Origin: Verpa conica | Lineage: Eukaryota > Ascomycota > Pezizomycetes > Pezizales > Morchellaceae | Length of the DNA stretch: 64,000 nt | NCBI GenBank assembly: GCA_033030425.1 | Contig: JAUFSD010000008.1 | Coordinates: 1,240,001 to 1,304,000, forward strand | Reading direction: 5' to 3' | Part shown: positions 48,578 to 60,516 of the stretch, one piece after another | Layout of the letters: each line of letters starts with the position of its first letter | How positions within the stretch are numbered: the first letter of the stretch is position 1 | The notes under the pieces: model-generated | Seen by the model: only the letters and a program-made list of their open reading frames with translations | Databases searched by the model: none | Told to the model about the DNA's origin: nothing | Position numbers and translations under genes: made by a program

Positions 48578-48587
48578 CTTCCCCTCA
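48578..48587 (-). other. Polypurine tract
   Basis: Purine run ending GAGGGGAAG on the coding strand, directly before the 3' LTR; expected plus-strand primer. Confidence 0.8.
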
Positions 48588-51398
48588 TTTGTTACCTCGT
48601 ATTGAAATGGCATGTTGAAGGTGTGCTGGTTTTGGTAGACCTTTTGTGAGAATGTCGGCAATATTGTCAGAGGTGGAAACATATTCTAGAGTGAATATTC
48701 CTGATTCGTACCATTCACGGGTAGAGTGGTATTGAATATCGATATGTTTGGATCTATCATGGATTCGTGGATTTCGGACCAGCTCAATGGAGCCAGTGTT
48801 GTCAGCGTGTATTGTATAGTTGTAAAGTTGACCAAGTTCTGTTAGGCCGGATTTTAACCATACAAGTTGCTTCGCGGTTAGGTTGAGGGCCATGTATTCC
48901 GCTTCAGTGGTTGACGTAGCAACTGCTCTTTGTTTGCGACTTCTCCAACTGATAGTTGAGTTTCCAAGTTGAAAGACGTATCCAGAAAAGGATTTTCGAT
49001 CAGAGACGTTGGAACCGAATGAGCTATCTGAGAACCCATGTAATGTGTTGTCGGAGTGTTTGGAGTAGAACAGTGTCCAGTCTTTAGTGCCTTTGAGATA
49101 TCTGAGGACTCGTTTGGCAGCAATTAGATGTTCTGCCGTAGGACAGGAGGAAAACTGGGAGAGAAAAGTGACTGTGTGAGAGATATCGGGTCTGGTGCCG
49201 ATACTGGCATACATAAGGGATCCGATTATGGATTGATAGAGTTTTTGATTATCTATCATGGACTCTATTGTTCCTGTTGTGAGTAGAGTGTTGGGTTCAA
49301 GTGGCGTGCCAACTGGTCTAGATTCATGCATTTGGAACTTTTCGAGGAGTTTTTGTATGTATCCTTTTTGAGAGAGGTGTATGCCGTCTGAGGTGCAGTC
49401 AATTTCTAATCCCAGGATGTACTTGGATTCCCCGAGGTCTGTGCATTCGAAATCTGTCATAAGAGACTGTTTGATGCTTTGACGATAATTGTTGCTGGGT
49501 CCAAATATCATAATGTCGTCAACGTAGACGGCTAGGTAAATGTGTTCTGTGGAATTAATGAACACACATGGATCGAAGTAGGATGCTTTGAATCCTTTCA
49601 GTTTGAGAGAGTCGACCAGGCAGGCGTACCATTCTCGGGGGGACTGTTTCAATCCGTAGATGCATTTGCGAAGTTTACACACTTTGTTGTCTTGTTTGTA
49701 TCCTTCAGGAAGTTCAAGATAGATCTCTTCCTTGAGGACACCGTGGAGAAAGGCAGTTTTGACGTCTAACTGAATGGGAATCCAGTTGTTATGGGCAGCA
49801 AGGGCTAGTAGGAGCCGTAGGGAGTCATAACGGGCAACTGGTGAGAATGTTTCATCGAAATCGAGACCTGGTATTTGTGAATATCCTTTGGCGACGTATC
49901 TGGCCTTGTATCGTTCAATGGTTCCGTCTCGGTTGTGTTTTGTTTTGTATACCCATTTTCCTTTTACAACTTCTCGATTTTGAGGTCGTTCTACTATATC
50001 CCATGTGTTGTTTTTAATGAGTGCGTCGTATTCTTCCTTCATTGCTTTATTCCAAAGTTCTGTGTCTTCCCCTGAGATGGCTTGTCGAAAGGTAACTGGA
50101 TCGGAGCTGACGTAGGCATAGTGAACTGGGATGTCAGTTGCAGTGTTTGCTCTGGCTTGACGAAGTTGTTTCCTAAGATCATTCCTTTGAGTTCTATGTT
50201 CTTTTAAGGAATCGTCTTTTAGACGTTGGTGATCTCGAGGGTCTTCGTTTTGCTCGATAACTAGAAGATCATCTTTCAGATCTCTGTCTAGTTTCTCAAT
50301 TTTGGCTTGTATTCTGCGTATTTCTGTGTCCCTTTGTTCCTGTTCGATTTGAGTTGTTTTTTCGACTGGTTTCTTTTCTCTTGTTGACCGTCTGGGTGTT
50401 TGGAATGGAGGTGGAATTGGTGCAATTGTTTCCTTTTTTGGTGGAGATAATGGAAAGTCTCCTGGTGTGTGTGTTTCTGGTTCTGATTCTTCATCAGAGT
50501 CTGGTAGCGGAAGTATAAATTCTTTTTCTTCCCCTTCGTCTTCTAAAGGAATTGCTTCTTTACCTTTTGAAGATGACTCTGGTACTGTCGCTTCGAGTTT
50601 TGGAGTTTCTATAGGGGGGTAGGAGATATCAATCGATACTTCCCCTGAAGCTGGAGGGGGGAACGTGAGATCTCTAGTGACTACCACCTTGTGTTGAGAT
50701 GGTATCCAAACTCGGTATTGTGTGTCGCTGTCTGTGTACCCAACAAATTTTCCTTCGACTGCTCTTGGTTCTAATTTGCTTCCGGCTGGCCTGGCTTCCT
50801 TGTGAATATGGATGTAGCATTTCTGACCGAAAGGGTGAGCATGTTTGATTGTTGGTTTCTTTCCATGGAGTGCTTCGTATGGGGTTTTATCCTTTAGAGC
50901 ACTGTGTAGGAGTCTATTTTTGAGATAGACAGCAGTTGAGTACGCCTCTTGCCATAGGATTCTGGGATGGTCCATTATCATGCATCGAACCATTGTGGTT
51001 ACCGTCCTGTTAAATCTTTCGGCTACTCCATTTGACTCATGGGAGTATGGTGGCGTTGTCTCTTGAGTAATGCCCTCTTTTCCGAAGAAGGTCTTGGTGT
51101 TTTTGTTGACATATTCGCCTCCACCATCAGCTCTGAACCTTTTTATTGTGGTGTTATGCTGATTTTTGACCTTATTGGTGAAGTGTTCGATGGCTTTACA
51201 CGCATCGTCTTTATTCTTTAGAAAGTAAATCCAAGAATAGCGAGTGTAGTCGTCTATAAAAGACATATAGTACTGGCATTTGTCCTGAGACATTACTCTT
51301 TGTTCTGAGAGAGATCTGAATGGACTAGTTCGAAGGGTTGTGTGGCTCGAGTACTTATTGTCTTTGGGACCGAATGAGTGCTTTTTGAAAGCGCGCAT
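48585..51398 (-). CDS. copia pol: integrase, reverse transcriptase and RNase H
   Basis: Long open frame of 937 codons. Integrase core: FIDDYTRYSWIYF, RADGGGEYVN and ESNGVAERFNRT give the D,D35E triad. A charged linker follows. Reverse transcriptase: WVYKTKHNRDGTIERYKARY, QLDVKTAFLHG, KCIYGLKQSPREWY and the catalytic YVDD in AVYVDDIMIFG. RNase H: GFSDSSFGS, TTEAEYMAL and HADNTGSIELV, ending near DILTKGLPKPAHL. The true N-terminus joins the upstream reading by another frameshift near 51310; the Met at 51398 is unlikely to be a real start. Confidence 0.9.
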   Translation of the reverse strand: MRAFKKHSFGPKDNKYSSHTTLRTSPFRSLSEQRVMSQDKCQYYMSFIDDYTRYSWIYFLKNKDDACKAIEHFTNKVKNQHNTTIKRFRADGGGEYVNKNTKTFFGKEGITQETTPPYSHESNGVAERFNRTVTTMVRCMIMDHPRILWQEAYSTAVYLKNRLLHSALKDKTPYEALHGKKPTIKHAHPFGQKCYIHIHKEARPAGSKLEPRAVEGKFVGYTDSDTQYRVWIPSQHKVVVTRDLTFPPPASGEVSIDISYPPIETPKLEATVPESSSKGKEAIPLEDEGEEKEFILPLPDSDEESEPETHTPGDFPLSPPKKETIAPIPPPFQTPRRSTREKKPVEKTTQIEQEQRDTEIRRIQAKIEKLDRDLKDDLLVIEQNEDPRDHQRLKDDSLKEHRTQRNDLRKQLRQARANTATDIPVHYAYVSSDPVTFRQAISGEDTELWNKAMKEEYDALIKNNTWDIVERPQNREVVKGKWVYKTKHNRDGTIERYKARYVAKGYSQIPGLDFDETFSPVARYDSLRLLLALAAHNNWIPIQLDVKTAFLHGVLKEEIYLELPEGYKQDNKVCKLRKCIYGLKQSPREWYACLVDSLKLKGFKASYFDPCVFINSTEHIYLAVYVDDIMIFGPSNNYRQSIKQSLMTDFECTDLGESKYILGLEIDCTSDGIHLSQKGYIQKLLEKFQMHESRPVGTPLEPNTLLTTGTIESMIDNQKLYQSIIGSLMYASIGTRPDISHTVTFLSQFSSCPTAEHLIAAKRVLRYLKGTKDWTLFYSKHSDNTLHGFSDSSFGSNVSDRKSFSGYVFQLGNSTISWRSRKQRAVATSTTEAEYMALNLTAKQLVWLKSGLTELGQLYNYTIHADNTGSIELVRNPRIHDRSKHIDIQYHSTREWYESGIFTLEYVSTSDNIADILTKGLPKPAHLQHAISIRGNK

Positions 51399-52470
51399 GG
51401 TCCGCAGTGGAAATTACTTGGTTTCTTCTTGAGACGAGACGGTCAAGATATAGGCTATGAAGACTAGACGGATGTCCGAGTGCTTCATGCCATTCAGAGT
51501 AAGAAGAGAGACGTGCTACATTTTCAACTATTTGTACATTCCAGTGCCCGTTTACCAATTTTCCCCAGAGTAATTCTTTTTCGCCCTTTTTAACAATTTT
51601 GTTTCCTCCTCCTGCATCAACTCTGCATCCCTTTTTATCAAGAACGGTCTCGGAGATGAGACCAACTGGTCCGAACGTGGGGACGAGGAGTACATTAGTG
51701 AGAACGACTGAAGATCTTCCTCCGTCAGGGAGCCAACACTCGATGAGAATATCTCCAATTCCTGGAGCTCGGTGAGCGGTCCCATCAGCTGTTCTAACGA
51801 TTCCGTCGTAAGGTCGAACCGTAGTGAAGAGTTCTTTATGGGGAGAGATGTGAGCAGTTGCGCCAGAGTCGAATATCCAAGATGAGAAGGACGAGGAATT
51901 GTGGTGTACCATTAAAACGGTTGCCGAGTTATGTGTGCTAGTGGAGACGTTATCCTCCTTTCCTTTTCCTTTTCCTCCTTTCTTTCTCCATTCTTTTTCC
52001 TTCTTGAGCCTTCTGCAATCATCGTGGGTGTGATTTGTGAGCTTTTTTCCTGTTTTCGCCAAACAGTAGGTACACCATTTCTTGGTGCCATGACTGGTAT
52101 TGAAGACAGTGTCTTCGGAACTGCCAGTTTTGTTGGCGGATAGATCGGTGAGTCTATTGTAGACGTCTTCATAGGAGAGATTCTCCTTGGTTTGGAGATT
52201 GTCGATGATGTTTACCATTGAGGTGGCAGTGTTTAAGGAAACAAGCAGCAATGCTGCTTTGGCTCGGTTGGATTCTGCGACGGAGTGGAAGTCTTTGGAT
52301 AGTCCTTCTTTTGTTGTGTCCTGGCATCGTTGCTGAAACCTATTCCATTGATTTTGGAATGTGGTTAGGTGGTCTGCAAGAGAGGTGTTGTCCTGGTAAC
52401 GTAGGTTCAGGAGCGTTGTGAGGATATTAATTGTTGTTGCTGGAGTTTCCCTATCGTAAAGGTCTTTAAG
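51355..52470 (-). pseudogene. copia gag C-terminus, zinc knuckle, protease and pre-integrase
   Basis: Continues gag in a shifted frame without its own ATG (DHLTTFQNQWNRFQQR, LLLVSLNTATSMVNIIDNL). A CCHC knuckle reads CTYCLAKTGKKLTNHTHDDC. The aspartic protease active site is WIFDSGATAHIS. The pre-integrase HxxxxH zinc ligands are in WHEALGHPS. The paired CGPC cysteines fall in a different frame near 51405-51420, so a second shift lies at about 51450. The frame stops at 51355. Confidence 0.8.
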
Positions 52471-52823
52471 CGGCTTTCGTGTGCGCTACCGGCGGCAACG
52501 ACTGTGGTTTGTAGTTCTTCTGATACACCGTTGAGTAGAAGTGCGAGAGCTCGCTTAGAGATGGATTTCCAAGTCTTATGCTCTGAGGAGGTTTTATCGG
52601 TTGGTTCTTTTTCCTCGCCACTTACATTTTCCCACCATTCAACTGAATCAAAAGTAATCTTCCAGGCTCCTGCCCAGGTCTGATAGTTTGACTGTCCCTT
52701 AAGAACGGGAAGTCTATCTGTCTTGACCATGAGGTTTCCCATAGGATTGGGAACGGCAGTGCTCGTAGGTTGGACTACAGTTTCATCACCGGACTTGCTT
52801 GTAGAAGCTGCTCCTGAAGACAT
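52407..52823 (-). pseudogene. copia gag, N-terminal part, ends early by frameshift
   Basis: Starts MSSGAASTSKSGDE at 52823. It contains gag-like blocks (LPVLKGQSNYQTWAGAWK, WENVSGEE, SKRALALLLNGVSEE). It leaves the family sequence near 52470 and stops at 52407, while the matching continuation lies in another frame. Likely a one-base indel; it could be a sequencing error. Not a viral gene of animals or plants. Confidence 0.8.
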
Positions 52824-54132: not shown

Positions 54133-56788
54133 ATGACATTACAGAAAAACAATCGTGTCAATTCTCGTCTTCTTACCCGTCTCCAGAGCGATCTCAAAGA
54201 ACTCACCGCCAATCCCTACCAGGGGGTTGATGTCTATCACCATTCCGATAATCTCCAGAAGTTTTGTCTTGTCCTGACGCCTTTAGATGGCCCCTTTCTC
54301 GGCCTACGCCTACATTTCGAGGTGAATTTGCCCGGGACATGGCCCATTGATCCACCTCAGATTTCGTCAAGCTCAGACCTAAATCATCCAAATGTGTTTG
54401 GTGGTTACGTTTGCTCGGATTTATTACGCCTGTATAATGAAATACCGGAGGAAGGTTATACTGGTGGCTATACACCGGCCTTTACGCTTGGCGGGCTATT
54501 CACCCAGTTCCTATCATTTTTCTCATCCGAGGAGGTAAGATAATCTCTCCTCTGCCTATCTTAATTGTAAAAAGTGCATATCCAGCTTACAAATTCACAA
54601 TTAGGTCGAACAAGAAGGAGGTATGAAAGTGAGGATTGGGAATCGATTTGAGGAAAGATATTATTCAGCAGAAGTGCTTAAGTCTAGCGATTGGCTGAAT
54701 TTGCTTTACTACGGCCCGACGTCGCTCCCCGAGGCTCGTGATCACTACCTTAGGGAAGTTGAAGCTGGAGGGAACACCGAATCCGTGTATGCACGATACA
54801 GAGGGGGTACACACTACTATAAGTCTGTCAACTACACGGTGACAGTTTGGCGGCCAAGTTCTGGAGGGGAGTCAAAATTTGTTAAGGCTACTTGGGTTAA
54901 CCCAAGATACCTTTGGACAAAGCAGAAAGTTGAGGGATTTCAATGCTCCAAGTGTGGATATGGAACACCATCGATGCCCTGTTCCATACCCATTCAGGCT
55001 CCCAGTGGCATTACCTCAGACGCCGTATCGTGGGTCGAGATTGAGAAGGCAAGAAGGGCCTTTGAGGACAAAAAGTCTATGGATGAGAGAAAACTTCGGA
55101 ATTTGAAAAAAAAGCTTCGAGAAATTATTTTGCTCAAGGAGCGGCAGTCCACCGGAGAAACGCTGCAAGCAAATCAAATCAGCAAGATATCAACACAAAG
55201 CAAAATCGCCACGGAAATTGAGGAGCTTGAGGCAAAGATAACGAATCAAAACTCCACCAAGATCCCCGAAGTTCAGATAACAAGGGTCAATTCATTTAAG
55301 CCCAAGACTAAGGAGCACGAGACCCTAGGAGTAGGTGTTAATGCTGCCAAGGTCTCGCACAATACTAGAGTTTGCCATCTCAATATCCTTAACGACGATG
55401 TCCTCCTTCTGATTGCGGCCTCTCTGCCTTCCGAGTCCTTAATAAATTTCGGAAAGGCATATCCTCACCTACACGCACTCGTTACGGAGCACCACGTCCT
55501 TCTCCAACGGGAGTTAAAGTGTTTCTTCTTGCGAACACCTCTCAATAACCCCACAAATCTCCTCGGGGTTGGAGTCAATGTTGATAATATGGGTGGCCTT
55601 GAAAGTTCGTTTGACTGGCTTTCAATGGACGCATTCGAACTATTCAAGGTACGGAAGAGTATTGATAAAAAGGAATTTAAATTCTTTCTTCCATTGGGGT
55701 TTAGCACTTCCCATTTCGAAAGGGCTTATAATAGCGGGAAACTGTTTGAATATATCGATAAGATCACCACTGCAATCCCCGCAAAGAGAAGAGCGACTTC
55801 TGAAAATGAAGCCTTTGCACTCAATGCTGCTGAGAGGCGAATACAGGTGTTGTATAAGTTTTGCAATTCTATCATCGTCTCATTGATGCGCACTACAGAT
55901 GATCTTTATTCAGGATCGAGCTTGGAGGGTAACGCAGGCTCTTCGAAAACACTACTCTTTGCTAGCGAGAAGGCGTGTATTGGATACCTCCAGATATACC
56001 ATTTGCTACTTTGCATTATGCGTAGAGAGCCTAAGCTCCGAGACAGGGCTTTGGCTCGTTTGAGGGCCTTCTGTAGTACAGATGCGAATAGGGCAAAATC
56101 TTCAATTCCAGATCTAGGGGAGTTTCTAGTCATGGCAGCGGTAGTCGCAGGGAGCCATGAGCTGGTGAAAGAAGACGCGGAAACTTGCAGCAAACATACC
56201 ATGAGGACTCCATCAGTCTACAGCGAGGAGTCTGAGGAAGACGGCTGGGTCCTGGCTGGACAGAAGGGGAAGAAATTGAAGCTGATCGAGAAACAGAAAT
56301 CACTTCGCGGTGGGACAATCTCCTGGAGAGAGCATCTTGTTGGTCCTTTTACCAATGAAGTCCTCACCCGCAATGTGAGATGGGTCATTCAAAAACACCC
56401 CTCTCTCGCTATCATTAATGGCCCAAGTCCTCAACTCCGCATGCGCACAACCTTCAATGAGAGTAGGACCTCTCTACGACTAGTTATGTTTCAAGTTTTT
56501 TTCCTGGAGACGTTCACCGCTGATCATATCACCCGTCAAATGGCGAGCCAGTACGGGTTTGCTGGCCCAGAGGTACCGACGATGATCACGAAGGGTATTA
56601 AGGAGATTTACAGTATTGATAGGTGGGAGCTATTCTTTGGAAGGATCGGGTTTGGAAGAGCTGTACCATCAAAACCACTGCCGGTGAATAAGATGCTCGA
56701 AGATGCGGTTACCAGGAGTGCTCACAGGGGGTATCATAGGGATCCTAGAAGCTCAGGCGGGTATCAGGGTAGTAGACGTGGCAAGTGA
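54133..56788 (+). CDS. Ubiquitin-conjugating (UBC/E2) domain fused to an F-box region
   Basis: Exons: 54133-54534 and 54605-56788; 2586 nt, 861 aa. Residues about 8-135 are an E2 fold: SRLLTRLQSDLKELTANPY, FEVNLPGTWPIDPP, then HPN (85-87) and VCSDLL with the probable catalytic Cys94. Canonical E2s have 8 residues from N to C; here 7. A small CxxC..C motif (FQCSKCGYGTPSMPC) follows, then a Lys/Glu-rich coiled coil. An F-box-like segment sits at about 393-440 (LNILNDDVLLLIAASLPSES, NFGKAYPHLHALV). The rest is helical without known motifs and the end is Gly/Arg-rich (SSGGYQGSRRGK). F-boxes bind Skp1 in SCF ligases (family knowledge); one chain holding both E2 and F-box suggests a self-charging substrate adaptor (inference). 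The start at 54133 is preferred because a TATA box lies at 54068-54076. Confidence 0.85.
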
Positions 56789-56949: not shown

Positions 56950-57455
56950 GTTTTAGTTAGTGTGGTCCACGAGGCCGCTCGAGGCAAGGTAGGGGAGGTG
57001 GTCTCGAGGTGCCTCGGCTTTGTAGGCCTCTGGCTTTGGCTCGCCTTGGGTATTAGGAGTCTGGCCTCGAGGTACCTTGAGGAGCCTTGAGGCATAGAAT
57101 TATTTTTAGTAATAATTTAAGAGCTATTAAATACTCCACTACAGAGTATTTTAGTGTAGTTCCCTGCTATTACCTACTACCCTATTACCTATTTTATGGC
57201 CTTTGAATCAAGCTCACTAATAGTGGGTGATGAATTGTGGTGGGAATGACCAAGGTAACCTATTTTACTCCTACTAGAGTCTGTAATCTTTTATTTAATT
57301 TATTATTATTTACCTCGAGCCACCTCGAGGCGAGCCCAGAGAGAAGCCTCGAGGTACCTCGACCTCGTGGCCCCCCGGCCTTGCGCCCCCTCGAGGCCGA
57401 TACCTCAAGGCGAGGCCCGAGGCGCCTCGGCCTCGTAGACCACACTAGTTTTAGT
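56950..57455. mobile_element. hAT-like MITE, 490 bp, with 8-bp target duplication
   Basis: Element 56958-57447. Terminal inverted repeats of 20 bp with one mismatch: left TAGTGTGGTCCACGAGGCCG, right (reverse strand) with T in place of the second C of TCC. Flanked by GTTTTAGT at 56950-56957 and 57448-57455. An 8-bp duplication and TAGTG ends fit the hAT superfamily. The outer parts are GC-rich and full of CCTCGAGG/CTTGAGG motifs; the middle is AT-rich. No transposase. It lies about 170 bp past the E2-F-box stop. Confidence 0.85.
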
Positions 57456-57996: not shown

Positions 57997-60516
57997 TTAG
58001 CCCAACCCTGCTTTGGAAATTTTCACCACTGCTGCAACTGGCACCACAATCCCTTTATTCCCATCTATCCCTAGCGCCATCCCAGTTCGATACCCCATCT
58101 TCTCTAGCATACGTCGTCCTTTATTATCCTCGGCAATCTCGGGCGCAGAAGCACCCACAACGTCGCCTTCACGATGGTGTACCACACCTCCTCCGCCGCC
58201 ACGACTACGAGCTTCATTACGACCCCCGCGCCCGACGTGGGCGTCGGGGCGGCCGAGGAACTTCTTTCGGTTCATAATAGCAGCGATTGTATCTTCATCG
58301 CGTTCGAAGTATGACGAACGCCCAGTCTTGTAGAGTGTAGTAAATCGGGTCTTACCACCACCTACAGATTTAGATTTGAGGCCAAAGGCACCGGCGAAGG
58401 TGTGTGCTAGTTTACGATCCGATTTGTGCATTGGGGGAAGGGCAAGGCTAGATTTGTTAGCATGTCTAGTTTACCGAGAAATTTGGTAATAACAGAAAGT
58501 ACCTTTGGTGATCGCTCAGTAAGAACGCCATAATCTCCCTCTTCAACTCCTCTACATTCATCCCTTCTTTCCACTTTGCCATTGCATCTCTCTTCCCACC
58601 CTTTGCACCCAGTAGCCCATCAGCTCTTAACGCTTCTCTCTCCGCCCTTCGCGCTTTCTTCTTTTCGCGGTCTTTCTGCCAAGCACTCTGGATATCATCC
58701 TCTAGCTCTGAGTCGGTAAGGCCTAACACCGATATCTTGGCCTTGCCTTTCTTGCCTTTTGCTCGTCCCTTTTTGACAGCTGTGAGGCTCGGCCGATCCC
58801 ACTCCATGATATCAAAATCATCGTAAGCATCCGCAAATCGTGTGGCGTTTGGAAAGGACCCAGTACGGCGATTAGGGACGATGTCCGGTAAGTGAGATCT
58901 GTCTTTCGCCCTCTTTTTACCTTTACGAGGCAAGTCAAAGCGCATGAACTCGTGGAGCTCAAGGTTGAGTTCAAGATCCGATTCTGTGATCCCCATTGCT
59001 TCCTGTCGTTGCAGAAATCTCGCTAGTTTTGCATCATCGCCAGAGTCTTCATTATCTTCATCTCCCTCACTGTGCTCAGTACTCCCAGCGGCGTTTGCCG
59101 CGTCGGCTGCTTTTTGAATAAGAATCTCTTCATAACTTTCAATCTTAGAATTGGCGCTAGAGTCGAGAGATTTGGCGAGAACCCAAGTTGCATCATCGAC
59201 TTCGTAGCCAGACCATTTAATAAGGTACTGCACACCACTCGGACGTTCCCGCTTTCCTAGGATACTGTCAACGGGGCCTTTAGGTCCCTCACTACTGGTT
59301 GAAAGTCCCTCAAAATCATCAAGCTCATGATCCTCCCACATAGAAGCTTTATACGCATTTACAGCATCCGAGTCCTCGGCTGCGTCCTCTGAGTCTGTCG
59401 TAGAAGACCAAGAATCATCACCGCCCCGATCACGCTGATTAGCAGCTATACCGATGGGGTCACTTGATTCACCCTCAGCAAAGTTATCTACATCCTCGGT
59501 GGCCTCCGCACGCATTTGTGCGGCTATATTTTCGATGTAATCGTTGATGGCTGCGTCTTGTTCTGACTTCTTGTGCTGTGGCTTGCGACGGCGTTTATTG
59601 CCTTGCGTAGCGCGGGAGAAGGGGATATTTTTTAAAGAAGGAATGGATGGGAGATCGATAGTGGGTACTGTGGGTACTGTGTTGTTAATCGTTGTAGTGG
59701 TAGTTTGTGTGGTTATTATTTCAACGATTTTTGCCTCTACAGTTGGCTGTGGTGAGGGCTCTCTTTTCGGTGGAGCGACCTGGCGGGGGATTTGAGAATT
59801 GGTGCGGGATAATCCAGGCCGCATTTTCCGCGGAATGAAGACGATTTTCTCGCTGCCAGAGGAGGAGGCCGAGCCAGGTCGAATGGGAGACGGTGAGCGG
59901 ATCGGAGAGTAGACTGGGATGGATACTCGAGTTTGTCCCTTCGGCTTTAGACTTGGGTCACCGGTGACATCGACAACGAAATTTTGCTCCGGAGGGTCCA
60001 AGTCTAGTTTTTGGAGGTCTATTTCTTCTTGCAATACCTCAGTTGAAAGCTCGGCAGGAGAGTCTGTCTCCTCAAAATTCATGGTAATATCTTGATCCTC
60101 ATCCTCGTCTTCAGTCGAATCTGCTGGCAGTTCTCCTTTGACCTGCATTAGTTGCTGCCCCTCCTCAGGAGGGAGTACATTTGCATTCAGCGGCTTTAGT
60201 AAGTCCGAGGGCTCGAGGTGGCCAGCAGCGACGAAAGAAATTCTGGCATGGCGGAGTGGGTTGCCTGTGTAGTTGCCATGATGCCGTTCCGTATTCTTTG
60301 CTTCATCTGCGAGAGAGAAACCGTGGTGGGTATTTTCTAGATGATAATTTAGCGGTTTGAAAATTTCGTAGAGTAGAGTTAAGCCTCACCAGATAAATGA
60401 GAGAAGTCTCGCCCACTACCACTATAGCCTCCTCTGCCGCCTCTTCCACCTCGACCTCGACCCCGTACATCTCCACCCCCTCTGTATTTCTTACCACCAC
60501 GCCCCCGGGAAGCCAT
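57997..60516 (-). CDS. sqs1: Sqs1-type G-patch/R3H protein
   Basis: Sqs1 is a G-patch cofactor of the DEAH helicase Prp43 in splicing and ribosome assembly (yeast knowledge). Exons: 60390-60516, 58503-60306, 57997-58447; 2382 nt, 793 aa. The N-terminus is RGG-rich (MASRGRGGKKYRGGG ... RGRGRGGRGGRGG). A long acidic, low-complexity middle contains SGDDAKLARFLQRQEAMG and HEFMRFDLPRKGKKRAK. The R3H-like region reads LPPMHKSDRKLAHTFAGAFG, LKSKSVGGGKTRFTTLYKT. The G-patch is MLEKMGYRTGMALG, near the end (AAVVKISKAGLG). The order RGG, R3H, G-patch and the size match the family. Confidence 0.92.

Follow-up and report, generated by a model that had tools for sequence, protein, structure and literature searches.

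Within a 64,000-nucleotide stretch of the genome of the ascomycete Verpa conica (contig JAUFSD010000008.1, positions 1,240,001 to 1,304,000; hereafter the window), there is a gene whose product is probably a hybrid of a ubiquitin-conjugating enzyme (E2) and a ubiquitin ligase (E3): an N-terminal E2 (UBC) domain is followed by a degenerate F-box-like segment and by a C-terminal module resembling the hemiRING-UZI module of the ligase UBR4. The UBC domain is recognized by sequence and the E3 module by predicted fold, both in one chain. The protein, of a family not studied so far, may therefore be able to carry out ubiquitin tagging by itself. A sequence-only reading of the same DNA had proposed an E2 joined to an adaptor of the SCF (Skp1-Cul1-F-box) ligases. 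Its single chain with an E2 stands, but the Skp1 hook is doubtful and the UBR4-like module had been overlooked; since the adaptor idea omits this largest part of the protein, an E2 plus its own E3 is the better reading.

Gene Structure and Conservation

Gene structure, conservation and E2 identity were read from sequence, and the folds from predicted structures. The two exons and one clean intron reported earlier hold: the spliced frame encodes 861 amino acids, and the sequence at the exon junction (SSEE|VEQEGG) aligns without interruption in P0004 (Morchella importuna), in P0016 and in Agaricomycetes. In P0001 (M. sextelata) about 28 additional residues lie precisely at the junction, which looks like a retained intron. 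The alternative of two separate genes finds no support in the family, in which the one-chain layout recurs; all eight key residues are kept in 69 of 91 rows (here and below, all 90 relatives plus the window protein).

Judged by searches of its own genome (a 45.8-Mb assembly in 25 contigs), the gene is single-copy, and neither exon 1 nor exon 2 used as query revealed a paralogue there. Exon 1 found itself and two places likewise found by the UQ_con family model. Exon 2 found its own full match and a 58-residue match of 24.3 bits, which falls in the coiled-coil stretch and is considered a chance resemblance.

The E2 Domain

By sequence, the N-terminal part is an E2. It matches UQ_con with 41.7 bits (E-value 1.1e-10), above the curated UBC family cut-off of 27, and exon 1 alone matches solved E2s with a best E-value of 1.3e-8. 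A complete E2 fold is present in the predicted structure; the fold alignment of the Morchella orthologue model to E2 spans residues 10-288, and in the exon-2 model the last E2 helix corresponds to exon-2 residues 100-111. The active-looking E2 with HPN and Cys94 described earlier is thereby supported. A pseudo-E2 (UEV) was rejected, the catalytic Cys being retained in all 73 rows that carry a residue there and replaced in none.

The earlier reading had also noted that the HPN-to-Cys spacing is one residue shorter than usual, and had questioned activity on that account. The shortening is real, but the doubt is removed because the step is conserved: it is +9 from His to Cys in 71 of the 72 relatives with both HPN and Cys aligned, the lone exception being P0034, where an insert makes it 18. 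In the remaining 18 of the 90 relatives the E2 stretch is missing, and they fall outside this count.

A C-Terminal Module Resembling UBR4

The C-terminal ~400 residues match by fold the E3 module of UBR4 (PDB 8b5w and 8btl; described in PMC10873205), and predicted structures contain the hemiRING-UZI fold. The zinc ligands of the UBR4 hemiRING are C4838, C4841, H4887 and C4890 (PMC10873205). In both of our models the alignment to 8b5w begins five residues ahead of C440 and five ahead of C4838, so that C440 would fall on C4838, provided that there is no gap in that stretch; the start of the 8btl_A alignment rows would place it one residue off. H504 lies, in the exon-2 model, at the start of the helix that follows the hemiRING-like strands, and H4887 of UBR4 likewise comes after its strands. 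As far as residues can be matched from the alignment ends, the counterparts of C4841 and C4890 would be L443 and R507.

Several observations weigh against the E2/E3 hybrid. Cys would be missing from two of the four positions that supply zinc ligands in UBR4; a search with the C-terminal profile A6 recovers no UBR4 chain at E-values up to 10; none of 422 Foldseek matches to the exon-2 model reaches an E-value of 0.001; the two structure models rest on overlapping relatives and are not fully independent; and the E2 stretch is absent in 18 of the 91 rows, including P0004 and twelve metagenome records. We assume that these 18 result from truncated gene calling. Records P0002-P0014 are mostly metagenome entries that start near the intron and hence lack the E2; gene calling probably missed their exon 1. 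PF13764 (UBR4) had no match in the genome, but the control matched nowhere either, so the result is uninformative, and the E3 part of Ubr1 was not among the 50 matches listed for the Morchella orthologue model, a list filled by E2s.

The alignments behind these comparisons were A1 (the window protein with 22 of 80 relatives), A2 (58 of 80 plus exon 2), A3 (52 of 83 proteins), A4, A5 and A6 (9, 11 and 11 of 23 fragments, with P0072 and P0074 shortened in A6) and A7 (10 proteins).

Candidate Zinc Ligands

The most conserved Cys and His residues of the protein are C440, H504, C248 and C251 (counts in table 1), followed by H600 (79 of 91 rows), H61 (76), H85 and H845 (75 each) and C94 (73); the lower figures of the E2 residues among these are due solely to the 18 rows without that domain stretch. 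The earlier reading had pointed to a small CxxC..C zinc motif, of which the CxxC is well supported; the third Cys, C260, is kept in only 6 rows, and the idea of a self-contained zinc knuckle was dropped for this reason. The conserved partners of the CxxC are instead C440 and H504.

Of the C2HC set that UBR4 has in its CxxC and HxxC, only C440 and H504 are kept in place, and Cys occurs at 443 or 507 in none of the 91 rows; the module is therefore not classed as a strict hemiRING. This absence is what speaks for a pseudo-ligase, that is, an E2 equipped with its own substrate-binding scaffold in which the UBR4-like fold survives but E2 activation has been lost. We regard this as unlikely, for conservation among the Cys and His residues of the protein is highest at four others, enough to form a zinc site, which favors a zinc-bound core that has been kept. 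We propose that C248 and C251, which lie three residues beyond the E2, take the place of the two lost UBR4 ligands. It is possible, though somewhat less likely than not, that these two residues bind one zinc together with C440 and H504 and so staple the E2 to the E3 module, giving an obligate zinc-locked E2-E3 enzyme across fungi and a deeply separate group of relatives. Two sequences, if their records are correctly modelled, argue mildly against a strict site of four ligands: P0057 has neither C248 nor C251, P0061 carries Tyr in place of C251, and both retain C440 and H504. No description of a zinc-stapled E2-E3 design was found in the literature searched.

The F-Box-Like Segment

Between the E2 and the E3 module lie a helical hairpin or coiled coil, as the earlier reading had recognized, and a helical segment in which it had seen an F-box. 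The latter view survives in part. The window protein itself has no Pfam F-box match at E-values up to 10, and the LPxE that begins an F-box reads LNDD; but its segment 393-440 aligns with Pfam-positive F-boxes of relatives. All nine Glomeromycotina and Cercophora-type proteins tested (P0065, P0067, P0068 and P0074-P0079) match F-box or F-box-like at E-values up to 0.03, taking the better of the two models, and five (P0065, P0067, P0075, P0076 and P0077) pass the Pfam cut-off. Among 11 other members of the window's own clade only P0052 gives a match, which is below the cut-off, and neither P0069 and P0072 (0/2) nor the protist-like members (0/6) match the F-box models. By sequence, then, the segment either derives from an F-box or is similar to one; in the window protein it is degenerate.

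Were the segment functional, it could dock the protein on Skp1-Cul1, with the C-terminal part binding substrate and the E2 thus brought to the SCF ligase. Besides the matches in relatives at the same place, a mixed family profile of 11 fragments supports this idea: it finds eight PDB sequences at E-values up to 1, three of them up to 0.001 (best 1.6e-4), namely Cyclin-F, FBXO3, FBXO31, an Skp2 chain, FBXO2, FBXW7, FBXO44 and 1fs1_A (labelled p19), which we take to be the Skp2 F-box chain. We nonetheless consider the SCF arrangement improbable. Recruitment of Skp1 by the window protein is doubtful because neither it nor 10 of its 11 tested clade-mates has any F-box match; a profile of nine fragments from the window's clade alone finds no F-box protein, and the C-terminal part resembles an E3 module rather than a substrate-binding repeat. 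F-box chains are also missing among the matches listed (50 each) in two structure comparisons, which does not exclude the fold.

The F-box-like helices might, somewhat tentatively, have originated within the E3 module, as its N-terminal layer, the Pfam matches of relatives being likeness only. No linker separates the segment from C440, the confidence of its prediction is good (predicted local distance difference test scores in blocks of 88-92), and the protist-like relatives keep an alignable segment although none of the six has a Pfam match; on the other hand, the Pfam cut-off is exceeded in five of the nine Glomeromycotina and Cercophora-type relatives. This question concerns one segment only and is compatible with an E2/E3 hybrid.

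A Possible Mechanism

For the E2/E3 hybrid, all of whose biochemistry we infer, E1 would charge the N-terminal E2 with ubiquitin on Cys94, and the tethered hemiRING-UZI module would bind and modestly activate an E2~ubiquitin, which may belong to the same chain or to another molecule. The F-box-like segment would probably be a packing or adaptor piece, not a working Skp1 hook. Judging from E2-RING complexes in general, a zinc site beside the last E2 helix would be remote from the face by which E2s usually bind a RING, and the module may therefore plausibly act in trans or as a dimer. The UBR4 hemiRING has low affinity for its free E2 (UBE2A), which is held by other regions of UBR4 (PMC10873205; PMC7618180). 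Because the UBR4 module needs such regions, covalent fusion to an E2 would solve the problem of weak binding and do away with the need for them.

Distribution and Phylogeny

The nearest relatives are Morchella and metagenome proteins, with 49-53% identity over the aligned part. A tree built from 32 of the 91 rows places the window protein beside two Morchella proteins (97/92); metagenome P0003 and Wilcoxina join next (100/99 each). Instead of joining the Cercophora group, the Pezizomycete members cluster with Agaricomycetes (16 rows, 100/99); this split of the Ascomycota may reflect old paralogy, transfer or uneven rates. P0080 and P0084-P0090 form a deeply separate group of longer relatives with UBC, CxxC and the same C-terminal part. 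Six of these eight were scanned, and RRM lies above the Pfam cut-off in P0087 and P0089; a homologue search from P0080 gave eight proteins, all in this same group. Among viral contigs, 98 pattern matches yielded no relative.

Genomic Neighborhood

The gene lies downstream of a Copia-type retrotransposon with reverse transcriptase, integrase and Pol beta-barrel in two overlapping frames; a gag match was below cut-off. Neighboring frames on its other side carry R3H, G-patch and chromodomain, the last (43.6 bits) unusual for such a protein, and are probably one gene with an intron. The region just downstream of the gene appears, by eye, rich in palindromic words of the CTCGAGG type.

Table 1. Features of the gene and its surroundings (window coordinates)
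Feature	Position	Strand	Remarks
Copia-type retrotransposon	48585-52485	minus	upstream of gene
Exon 1	54133..54534	+	start codon and first part of E2 (UBC) domain; residues 1-134
HPN	54385-54393	+	residues 85-87
Catalytic Cys94	54412-54414	+	in exon 1
Intron	54535..54604	+	70 bp, GT...AG, phase 0; relatives continuous across junction
Exon 2	54605..56788	+	residues 135-861 and stop codon
Second part of E2 domain, with inserts	54605..54937	+	last E2 helix at about residues 234-245
C248-x-x-C251	54944..54955	+	directly past last E2 helix; putative zinc ligands; C248 in 88/91, C251 in 87/91 rows
Helical hairpin / coiled coil	55031..55252	+	residues about 277-350; not conserved over 23 aligned rows
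F-box-like helical segment	55379..55522	+	residues 393-440; degenerate in window protein's clade
UBR4-like hemiRING-UZI module	55505..56725	+	residues about 435-841; match by predicted fold
C440	55520..55522	+	putative zinc ligand near UBR4 C4838; 91/91 rows
H504	55712..55714	+	putative zinc ligand, counterpart of UBR4 H4887; 89/91 rows, 2 gaps
CTCGAGG-rich region	56960-57440
R3H, G-patch and chromodomain frames	57997-60385	minus

Comparison with Known Systems

Like E2s of the Rad6/UBE2A, UBE2T and UBE2N types, the window protein has a complete (predicted) E2 fold, an HPN and a catalytic Cys; it differs from them in the shorter HPN-Cys spacing, in inserts in the last third of the domain and in its long C-terminal extension. 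F-box proteins such as Cyclin-F, FBXO3, FBXO31 and Skp2 are matched by the family profile, and some relatives pass the Pfam cut-off, but the window protein, with its LNDD, does not. The C-terminal part of yeast Ubr1 (PDB 7mey) offers another contrast, since Ubr1 has a RING and is a chain separate from its E2, Ubc2.

BIRC6 and UBE2O carry their UBC domain C-terminally. The window protein, like them, would unite a UBC domain with E3 function in one chain, but its E3 part is UBR4-like and its UBC is N-terminal. Such hybrids are few, these two being named in a compendium of human E3s (PMC13061254). The E2/E3 hybrid class is thus already known; the pairing of UBC with a UBR4-like module appears not to have been described, the open-licence literature searched giving no report of a protein with UBC plus F-box or UBC plus a hemiRING/UBR4-like part. 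With respect to UBR4 itself, whose module was described only in 2024 (PMC10873205), the second Cys of CxxC and the Cys of HxxC are not kept, the profile search gave no match at the level of sequence, and here the module is fused to an E2 in a single chain of 861 residues. If our interpretation is correct, this compact chain of ~860 residues would be an easier system than the 574-kDa UBR4 in which to study how a hemiRING-UZI module handles E2~ubiquitin, and it would point to a ubiquitin pathway that is distributed over fungi and has so far escaped study.
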